64,000 nt of DNA from Flavobacteriales bacterium UBA1494. Its GTDB lineage: Bacteria > Bacteroidota > Bacteroidia > Flavobacteriales_E > Vicingaceae. The notes beneath the pieces are model-generated. The model saw only the letters and a list, made by a program, of their open reading frames with translations. It was not told where the DNA came from and did no database searches. A program made the translations under genes and the position numbers. Below are positions 54,314 to 59,864 of the stretch, one piece after another (the first letter of the stretch is position 1; each line of letters starts with the position of its first letter). The stretch lies in assembly GCA_905182175.1 (NCBI GenBank), contig CAJJAT010000011.1, positions 62,001 to 126,000 on the forward strand, given 5' to 3'.

Positions 54314-56209
54314 ATGATAGATGACTCTTCCATCCTTACAATTCTAAAAAAATATTGGGGCTTTTCGAGCTTTCGCCCCCAACAAGAAGAGATTATTCAG
54401 TCAGTTTTAGATGGTAAAGACACTTTAGCTTTGCTTCCAACAGGCGGTGGAAAATCGATTTGCTTTCAAATTCCATCTTTAGCAAAGGACGGAATTTGCT
54501 TAGTTGTATCTCCTTTAATTGCCCTGATGCAAGATCAAGTGCAAAATCTAAAATCCAAAGGAATAAAGGCGTTAATGATTCACTCCGCCATGAGCAAGCG
54601 CGAAATTGATATTACATTGGACAATGCAGCCTATGGAAATTATAAGTTCTTATACCTTTCCCCTGAACGTTTAGAGACGGAGTTATTCCAAGCACGACTT
54701 AAAAAAATGACAGTAAATTCTGTCGCTATTGATGAGGCGCATTGCATTTCTCAATGGGGGTATGATTTTAGGCCAGCCTACCTTAATGTTGCTAAACTAA
54801 AAGAAGAATTACCTGACGTACCGTTTATCGCCTTAACAGCCACAGCCACTCCAAAGGTGGTAGAAGATATTCAGGAAAGGTTAACTTTTAAAAAGCAAAA
54901 TGTTTTACAAGAGAGTTTTCTTCGAAGTAACCTCTCCTATGTTGTGATCAAGACAGAAAACACTATGGCCAAGATGCTGCATGTTATTGATAAGACAGGA
55001 GGTCCAGGCATAGTGTATGCAACCACCAGAAGAAGAACTAAGGAAGTAGCTAACATTTTAATTGAGCATGGTTTAAGCGCCGACTTCTATCATGCCGGAC
55101 TAACTGCTGAAGAACGACAACGCAAACAAAACGATTGGATTACAAATCAAACACAAATCATAGTTTCTACAAATGCGTTTGGAATGGGAATTGACAAACC
55201 CGATGTTCGATTCGTAATCCATGTAGATTTACCCAGCTCTTTAGAGGCATACTTTCAAGAAGCAGGAAGAGCAGGAAGAGATGAAAAAAAGGCATATTCA
55301 GTTTTGCTCGTTAGTCCTTCTATGACGGGAGATTTGAAACAAAGAACTGAAGCTGAATTTCCTGAAATAGACTTCATTAAAAAATGCTATTTGAGCTTGT
55401 CTAACTATTTTCAAATACCAATACACGGAGGCTTAGACCAAAGTTATACTTTCGACATTAAAGATTACAGCAAACGATACAAATTAAACATAGCGAGTGC
55501 TTATCGAGCACTTCATTTTTTAGAAAAAGAAGGACTCCTCAGCTTATCAGAAAACTTCGCAACCAAATCCAAAATATACATTCTACTCACAAAACAAGAT
55601 TTTTACAAGTTTCAAGTAGCCAATAAAAAGTACGATTACTTCTTAAAAACATTGTTACGGACGTATGGAGGACTAATGGAAAACTATATTGCAATTAATG
55701 AAACTGAATTAGCTAAAAATTTAGACAGTAACCGCACTAAAGTGATCGATACACTTGTCAGACTAAAAAAGTTAGAGGTTATGGATTATGAACCAAAAGG
55801 TAACCTGCCGAAAATCACATATACCAGGCAAAGAGTCGACAAGATTCATATCAGTAAGCACCATTACCAAGAAAGAAAAACAATAGCTTTCGACCAACTG
55901 AACGCAGTTGTTCACTATGCAGAAAATGAAAATGAATGCAGAAGCAGTACTCTTCTAAATTACTTTGGAGAGGAACTTACAAAAACCTGTGGAGTTTGCG
56001 ATGTATGCTTAGCAAAAAAGCGAGCAAATACAGCTGTTAATGTTGATACGTTAGAATTAAAGCTTCTGGAAAGAATAACAAAAGGACCTCAAAAAGTAGA
56101 CAAACTATTACAGGGTATTAAATATCAAAAAGAAGCAATTCAGATTCTTAGTTTTTTAACCGAGAAAGGGAAAATTACATTTGATGGGCTATCTTATTCA
56201 CTGAATTAG
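54314..56209 (+). CDS. recQ: ATP-dependent DNA helicase RecQ
   Basis: 3'-5' DNA helicase of recombination and repair; 631 aa. Walker A is PTGGGKS (42-48), DEAH starts at residue 140, the aromatic-rich loop is HCISQWGYDFRP, and motif VI is QEAGRAGRD. The zinc domain (CRSSTLLNYFGE...CGVCDVC) and winged helix follow. No HRDC domain is seen: the C-terminal ~50 residues form only a short winged-helix-like tail. This is the shorter RecQ type, of which Bacteroidota often carry more than one. Confidence 0.93.
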   Translation: MIDDSSILTILKKYWGFSSFRPQQEEIIQSVLDGKDTLALLPTGGGKSICFQIPSLAKDGICLVVSPLIALMQDQVQNLKSKGIKALMIHSAMSKREIDITLDNAAYGNYKFLYLSPERLETELFQARLKKMTVNSVAIDEAHCISQWGYDFRPAYLNVAKLKEELPDVPFIALTATATPKVVEDIQERLTFKKQNVLQESFLRSNLSYVVIKTENTMAKMLHVIDKTGGPGIVYATTRRRTKEVANILIEHGLSADFYHAGLTAEERQRKQNDWITNQTQIIVSTNAFGMGIDKPDVRFVIHVDLPSSLEAYFQEAGRAGRDEKKAYSVLLVSPSMTGDLKQRTEAEFPEIDFIKKCYLSLSNYFQIPIHGGLDQSYTFDIKDYSKRYKLNIASAYRALHFLEKEGLLSLSENFATKSKIYILLTKQDFYKFQVANKKYDYFLKTLLRTYGGLMENYIAINETELAKNLDSNRTKVIDTLVRLKKLEVMDYEPKGNLPKITYTRQRVDKIHISKHHYQERKTIAFDQLNAVVHYAENENECRSSTLLNYFGEELTKTCGVCDVCLAKKRANTAVNVDTLELKLLERITKGPQKVDKLLQGIKYQKEAIQILSFLTEKGKITFDGLSYSLN

Positions 56210-56276
56210 CTTTGCGGTGTCAATTCAATCCCATATTCCCTTAACAAATGATTTCATAAAATGAATCAAACAAAAA

Positions 56277-56303
56277 AAGCGCAAACCCTCCAGGTTTGCG
56301 CTT
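56277..56303. terminator. Terminator between recQ and the PEBP gene
   Basis: AAGCGCAAACC (56277-56287) pairs perfectly with GGTTTGCGCTT (56293-56303) over CTCCA. On the minus strand it is followed by seven T, so it mainly ends the PEBP transcript 35 nt after its stop. It could also slow plus-strand transcription from recQ. Confidence 0.85.
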
Positions 56304-56337
56304 GATAAATTTCATCCTTATTTATAAGCAGTTTTTA

Positions 56338-56895
56338 TTACTTCTTGTCTTTTTTATAATACGTAACTATACTAGCCTTCGCTATAATGTTGTTCCAAAG
56401 ATAGTACCCAACTACAGCTGGGTTCGTGCTTTCATTAAGTCCGAGTTTATCTGTTTTTAAAGCATAAACTGTAATTACATATTGATGTAAACCGTGCCCC
56501 TCAGGAGGACAAGGCCCACCATAACTCTTTGCTCCATAATCAGTCATGCTTTGTATTGCACCTTCGGGAATAGAACTTGACCCTTCACTACCTGCGCCTG
56601 ATTTCAATTCACTTGTGTTAGCAGGAATGTCAAACACTACCCAATGCCACCAGCCGCTTCCTGTTGGAGCATCTGGATCGTACATTGTGATGGCAAAACT
56701 CTTAGTTCCTTCAGGTGCATTTTTCCAGGAAAGTTGAGGAGATTGATTTTCTCCTTCGCAACCAAAGCCGTTGAACTCTTCGTTAATTGTTGCCTCACCA
56801 CCAAGAGTATTGCTAGATAATGTAAAAGTACCTTGAGCAAACATGGTACTTGACGCAGCCAATAATAGAACTAAAATAAAATTTATTTTTTTCAC
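56338..56895 (-). CDS. YbhB/YbcL-type PEBP-family protein, exported
   Basis: Phosphatidylethanolamine-binding-protein fold, 185 aa, with a signal peptide of about 20 residues (ending MFAQ), so periplasmic. The ligand-site motifs are YDPDAPTGSGWWHWVVFDIP and GAKSYGGPCPPEGHGLHQY. The biochemical role of bacterial members is unknown. Start codon GTG. It lies downstream of, and on the same strand as, a broken AraC regulator that may once have controlled it. Confidence 0.9.
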   Translation of the reverse strand: MKKINFILVLLLAASSTMFAQGTFTLSSNTLGGEATINEEFNGFGCEGENQSPQLSWKNAPEGTKSFAITMYDPDAPTGSGWWHWVVFDIPANTSELKSGAGSEGSSSIPEGAIQSMTDYGAKSYGGPCPPEGHGLHQYVITVYALKTDKLGLNESTNPAVVGYYLWNNIIAKASIVTYYKKDKK

Positions 56896-56983
56896 CTTTT
56901 TTGTATTAGTTTACAGTGGCGAAGCTATGAATAGATTGAAGTTTCTAGGTATTTACGTTAGTCCAAAAAGTGTTGCTAATGGT

Positions 56984-57822
56984 TCAAGTTAATTGGTACT
57001 GTTTTGGAGTGTATCCAACTTTCGCTTTAAAGGCTTGTATAAAATTAGAAAGAGTTTCGTAGCCAATTTCTTCAAATATATCAGAAGGTCGGATTGACTT
57101 ATTATTTAATAGATAAGCGGAATGGTCCAGTCGTTTTTCCTGAAACCATCTACTTGGGGAACTATGAAAGTTTTTTTCGAATTCTCGTTTAAAAGTTGAA
57201 ACACATATATTGGAGAGAAAAGAAAGTTCTTTTACTGAAAGCTTGTTCAATTTATTCGTCTCTACGATTTCCATGAAATGTTGAAATTGACTGTCCTGTT
57301 TAGCAATTAAGGAAAAAATAAAATCGACTCCTCTTGTCGCCTTGAGGTATATCAATAACTTTTCAAACTTCACTTCCAAAAGCTTTACTTGAGTGCCAGC
57401 ATCAAGATGATTGATTTCTATTAACCCATTTACAAATGTTCTTAAGAAATCGTCATATTCAAAAGAGTAAATGGACTCGTAACCCTCGCCTTGAACAGAA
57501 TTAATCTGATGTTTCTGTATTAAGTTAATCAATGTCTGATTTGAAAAGAAGAACAAAATACTTCTTTAGTTATCCAAAGAATTAGGAAGCCTTTCTGTCA
57601 TCAAGCAATTCCCCCTTTTCATTGACAAGAAACTTGACTCGTCTATCGAAACTGTGGTCTTATTAGAAAAGACCTCTTTTCTACCTCCCAATAAAAACTG
57701 AACGTATTTTGTTGCAAACATAGCATCTGTCTAAAGTTCTCTTTAGAGGTTTGATAATCGAAAACCTTAACTGAAAAAGAATCTTTTACAGTTGAGTTAT
57801 CAGGCAGGTTTATGATGTCCAC
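56984..57822 (-). pseudogene. AraC-family regulator broken by a frameshift and a stop
   Basis: Three open pieces on one strand form one AraC protein of about 280 aa. From GTG at 57822 (2 nt after the ligA stop) the frame gives VDIINLPDNSTVKD... up to NTFSF. One base is missing in a T run (57693-57697); the next frame continues LLGGRKEVFSNKTTVSIDES and GNCLMTERL. Then TAA (57566-57568) stands in the frame, after which RSILFFFSNQT runs to the HTH domain (ELSFLSNICVSTFKREFEKN, SDIFEEIGYETLSNFIQAF). A 190-aa C-terminal piece starting at a TTG at 57556 could still be translated, with both helix-turn-helix motifs but no complete sensor domain. Confidence 0.85.
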
Positions 57823-57824
57823 TT

Positions 57825-59864
<2,040 letters not shown>

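Follow-up and report, generated by a model that had tools for sequence, protein, structure and literature searches.

When a regulator gene survives in the sequence as only part of its frame, the remainder can pass for a complete short protein. The interval between recQ and ligA in this genome poses that question, since automatic annotation would call a 190-aa remnant there a regulator. We analysed the window, meaning the whole stretch of 64,000 nucleotides, by examining this interval together with homologous loci, and conclude with a probability of roughly 90% that positions 56984-57822 are a recently inactivated AraC-type regulator gene, part of a probably inserted and partly decayed module that also contains a PEBP gene (Table 1).

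Table 1 Features of the recQ-ligA interval (positions in the window)
Feature	Position	Strand	Remarks
recQ-ligA interval	56210..57824		1615 bases between stop codons; holds the araC-PEBP pair
Terminator-like hairpin with T tail	56277..56303	-	3' of the PEBP gene
PEBP (YbhB/YbcL-type) gene, open	56338..56895	-	GTG start; signal-peptide-like N terminus (by eye)
-7 box position	56920..56927	-	Reads TAGCTTCG, off consensus, at the usual distance of 36
Operator-like site	56960..56987	-	Half-sites TTGAACC and TTGGACT, 21 bp apart; the first covers the regulator TGA stop
C-terminal piece, AraC-type regulator	56984..57565	-	193 codons, then TGA; carries the DNA-binding HTH_18 domain after the end of the ExsA_N-like one
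In-frame TAA	57566..57568	-	Tyr in 8/8 aligned homologues at this column
Middle piece	57569..57697	-	In frame with the C-terminal piece; homology starts at FLLGG, 57697
T5 run	57693..57697	-	Homology switches reading frame, one-base offset
N-terminal piece	57698..57822	-	GTG 57820-57822 at the start column of homologues, 2 nt past the ligA stop

Two lesions in one regulator gene

The preliminary description had read this region as the rest of one regulator divided between two frames, and alignment to a full homologue bears this out. All three pieces match, in order, a 279-aa protein encoded in a genome of the same genus (L002:1243-2082), with identities of 38% for the N-terminal, 56% for the middle and 55% for the C-terminal piece; this ordered homology excludes chance. 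From stop to stop on the minus strand, the N-terminal frame spans 57643-57858, the middle one 57566-57730 and the C-terminal one the positions given in Table 1. The first two overlap in different frames, and homology crosses over between them at the T5 run, where the offset agrees with the single missing base that had been suspected. The middle and C-terminal pieces form a single frame split by the TAA, and the Tyr that had been expected close to this stop is the residue that the aligned homologues carry there. Both lesions had been placed correctly; on the plus strand they read A5 and TTA. The start column holds GTG in the window and ATG in 84/87 homologues, with GTG, TTG and ATA in one each.

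Domain content identifies the family. The C-terminal piece contains the double helix-turn-helix that ends AraC-type proteins (HTH_18, E 3.3e-14, 53.4 bits against a cut-off of 33.6) and a match to ExsA_N (E 1.1e-8, 36 bits, cut-off 27). ExsA_N recurs in the middle piece (E 2.2e-4, 22.1 bits, under the cut-off of 27), and the separate N-terminal regulatory domain of the AraC family is thereby found across these two pieces; the N-terminal piece has no Pfam match. Neither the window piece nor the intact L075 protein scored above the cut-off of any NCBIfam regulator model. The domain order is shared with AraC/XylS-type regulators that have an ExsA_N-like N-terminal domain (PF22200 and PF12833).

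Intact homologues and their PEBP partner

Matches were found in 26 of the 60 relatives searched and, at 1e-20, in 41 of 395 genomes of the class, and 327 stretches of a genome contig collection encode a relative, the best 80 of which were kept. We examined 89 loci (L002, L044-L049, L051, L052 and L074-L153), with the weaker or more distant L003-L030 and L053-L073 outside the count. Duplicates among the 89 bring the number of distinct genomes slightly below that figure: L125 is the L002 contig, on which G005 carries the pair, and the C-terminal pieces are identical in L104 and L044 and in L092 and L048.

At 88/89 loci the regulator is one open frame spanning both domains from end to end, and none of these 88 shares either of the window's lesions. 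This supports the earlier proposal that two lesions mean real decay, and it makes the 190-aa frame of the window a remnant: the gene has been inactivated by two lesions and its homologues are intact. A short form of the family that begins at the helix-turn-helix is ruled out by the same count. The one exception, L045 (G076, reverse strand), has a single in-frame TAG at the codon before VVFDNSS, a site other than those of the window's lesions, and its PEBP gene is open.

Where it is intact, the regulator is the first gene of a two-gene module whose second gene is PEBP. At 84/89 loci a YbhB/YbcL-type PEBP gene comes next in the same orientation, usually about 90 nt past the regulator as against some 380-400 nt in L131 and L134; none was found at L129, L130 and L132, where 219-822 bases are left on the locus, or at L121 and L126, with 3 kb. 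The window's PEBP carries the PEBP domain (PF01161) and scores as a member of the YbhB/YbcL Raf kinase inhibitor-like family (TIGR00481, 150.4 bits against a cut-off of 57.75), from which it differs by its signal-peptide-like N terminus and its position under an AraC-type gene. It is the sole PF01161 match in its genome, and PEBP occurs in two of the six genomes of the genus, the other being G005. Its GTG start lies at a column where 80/82 homologues have ATG; the two exceptions are L138, where ATG is the next codon, and L146, whose frame was misassigned in the analysis. The L146 row is for that reason spurious in the PEBP trees and in the PEBP conservation counts, its PEBP frame being in fact open. 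Start codons are treated in PMC6847099, and the portion of that paper considered here makes no mention of GTG. An AraC-PEBP pair was the subject of none of the publications among the matches listed.

An operator-like site and a -7 box

Between the two genes, the homologues share a box with the consensus, preceding codons included, TTGAaCTTTTA.CAatACTTTTTGAaCt, which holds two TTGAnCT half-sites. Equality of bases within the box (77 rows) is highest at lag 21, at 0.498, followed by 0.438 at lag 12 and at most 0.406 at the remaining lags from 8 to 31 (lowest 0.187), values to which T-richness contributes part of the background and which come from a stretch picked after the box was seen. Both half-sites are present in 66 of the 71 loci of standard spacing, and the regulator stop within the first half-site is TGA in 78/88 loci, including all 71 of standard spacing. 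The 12-base core of the pattern occurs 91 times in 88 loci, 65 times directly after the regulator; of the other 26 occurrences, 21 are in opposite orientation within the region of PEBP, about 270-281 nt further along, and so look like coding sequence. When up to two mismatches are allowed, the genome contains no other copy of the window's site; two places match it with three. In L134, the box pattern is repeated 224 nt past the regulator.

Tandem direct half-sites 21 bp apart are known from araI1-I2 and are typical of AraC itself. The putative half-sites here resemble them in arrangement and spacing; compared with AraC/XylS-type regulators that have PF22200 and PF12833, the window copy differs in being broken.

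Downstream of the box, TAnnTTTG occurs in 74/81 homologous gaps, against 4.3 expected after base shuffling, and in 75/80 when the 140 nt past the stop are used instead; among the seven gaps without it, those of L146 and L051 were shortened by the chosen PEBP start. Its distance past the box is 36 nt in 50 loci and 35 nt in 12, and it stands 30-40 nt from the PEBP start in all but one placing. A single mismatch to this motif, as in the window, is also present in five intact loci (L049, L122, L138, L145 and L150, by eye). TAnnTTTG is the -7 box of the Bacteroidota sigma-A promoter in the part of PMC9723704 drawn on here; the homologues resemble that promoter in having the box ahead of PEBP and differ in that no -33 element is clearly conserved in the stretch that separates it from the operator. 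Judged from sequence, then, the site would be an operator: an intact regulator would bind the two TTGAnCT half-sites, 21 bp apart and beginning at its own stop codon, and, once bound, would activate a PEBP promoter some 35 nt downstream.

Probable insertion between recQ and ligA

In all five of the other genomes of the genus (G001-G005), recQ and ligA meet tail to tail: the stops overlap by 4, 4 and 20 nt in L038, L039 and L042, and are 5 and 1 nt apart in L040 and L041. Since this junction is empty in five relatives, the pair was most likely inserted in the window between convergent recQ and ligA. A search of 56150-57900 for traces of a mobile element gave no direct repeat of at least 12. At its upstream end the pair begins with the regulator start codon, and ligA occupies the place expected for the regulator's promoter; the gene would therefore have had no promoter to itself and would have relied on transcription reading through from ligA. 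A TTAGAGA stretch stands shortly 5' of the regulator start in L074, L075 and L086 (by eye) and is absent from the window.

In the tree of C-terminal pieces, the window falls within a clade of 17 rows that comprises Flavobacteriaceae and two further rows (support 99/89, bootstrap not settled), with G005 outside. Holding window and G005 together gave p-AU of 0.093 for the regulator and 0.442 for PEBP in quick trees that omitted four long rows, and an acquisition separate from that of G005 is unproven. The pair of L138 (Calditrichia MAG) comes from a record labelled Calditrichota and falls among Bacteroidota in the tree, through either transfer or a misbinned contig.

Age and strength of the decay

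Compared with L074, the C-terminal piece has 45, 19 and 103 differences at codon positions 1, 2 and 3, and PEBP, whose frame is open and conserved, has 23, 16 and 78. With differences mainly at the third position, the decay looks recent. NG86 dN from the window to its six nearest relatives is 0.188-0.221 for the regulator, against 0.097-0.179 among those six, and 0.115-0.162 for PEBP, against 0.058-0.130 (dS was undefined for many pairs through saturation). As dN is raised alike in both genes, most of the branch was probably spent under selection, with the lesions arising late. We thus infer a recent inactivation.

Signs of relaxed selection on the regulator are weak. Among columns of the C-terminal piece conserved at 97%, 3/37 are changed, as many as in 1/87 intact homologues; at 90% the change is 6/64 (as many in 8/87), and at 80% it is 9/88 (as many in 28/87), which makes the window ordinary at looser thresholds. 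The middle piece shows four deviations at the 90% threshold that belong to its out-of-frame 5' part and were not counted. For the araC/PEBP end-branch ratio the window's value is 2.75, which is reached or exceeded by 5/22 other rows, namely L082, L124 and L150 and the near-zero branches of L084 and L085. Strong relaxed selection was considered and rejected: conserved columns, paired end branches and codon positions gave weak signs only.

Beyond the lesions, the window has kept the operator and has changes in the -7 box and in both start codons. After insertion the regulator gene would have decayed, leaving a PEBP gene that, given the kept operator, off-consensus -7 box and GTG start, probably is not induced or is expressed weakly.

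Alternative explanations

That the frame change falls in a homopolymer and that the remaining sequence looks constrained would both fit a gene that is intact and an assembly or sequencing error at one or both sites. An error at the homopolymer lesion alone is possible; the TAA lies outside any homopolymer, and two unlike lesions within one gene, together with a GTG start, -7 change and absent upstream region that agree with decay, make this explanation unlikely. As a rough check of assembly quality, we compared ten frames of the window (four neighbouring same-strand pairs and two single) with Pfam; nine match a family and no pair has a family in common, so that no further split gene came to light among them.

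The 190-aa or a shorter frame might instead be translated as a working DNA-binding domain, given an HTH_18 score above the cut-off, a TTG start 9 nt past the TAA and an operator-like site whose half-sites keep their spacing of 21 bp. We hold such a truncated regulator to be quite improbable: 88/89 loci have long homologues and the last has a long one that is broken, the frame has no evident promoter of its own, and two strongly conserved residues of the first helix-turn-helix region and a conserved Glu are changed. The frame from the GTG ends 86 nt before the TTG, which makes coupled re-initiation unlikely. Programmed recoding, by frameshift and stop read-through to a full-length protein, would suit a frame otherwise so well kept and is rejected as highly implausible, as neither site is conserved, 88/89 loci are open without it and the run is by eye not a canonical slippery heptamer.

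The regulator-PEBP module

A decayed regulator gene thus remains the preferred reading, and as a pseudogene it is ordinary: it resembles other single-gene bacterial pseudogenes in its frameshift, its nonsense codon and its lack of a promoter region, and differs from them in nothing essential. Of more use is the conserved, little-noticed module with its putative operator. We lean, with somewhat better than even confidence, towards seeing the intact form as a two-gene module of Bacteroidota that moves horizontally and is undescribed, in which an AraC-type activator has a single target, a secreted PEBP, through an operator of tandem TTGAnCT half-sites, spaced 21 bp, that starts at the stop codon of the activator itself; the window would then show such a module that landed promoterless and whose loss is under way, beginning with the regulator. 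For a group of Bacteroidota AraC-type regulators, the conserved pair provides a likely single target and an operator that is concrete and can be tested, and it gives a handle on the signals to which bacterial secreted PEBP proteins respond.

Two further frames of the same genome resemble AraC-type regulators. One (L156, G000:C26:47248-47478) is an open frame of 188 aa that contains HTH_18 and seems to encode a short AraC-like protein; the other (L159, G000:C34:4243-4434) has a weak HTH_18 match below the cut-off and an internal TGA, and is possibly another regulator remnant.
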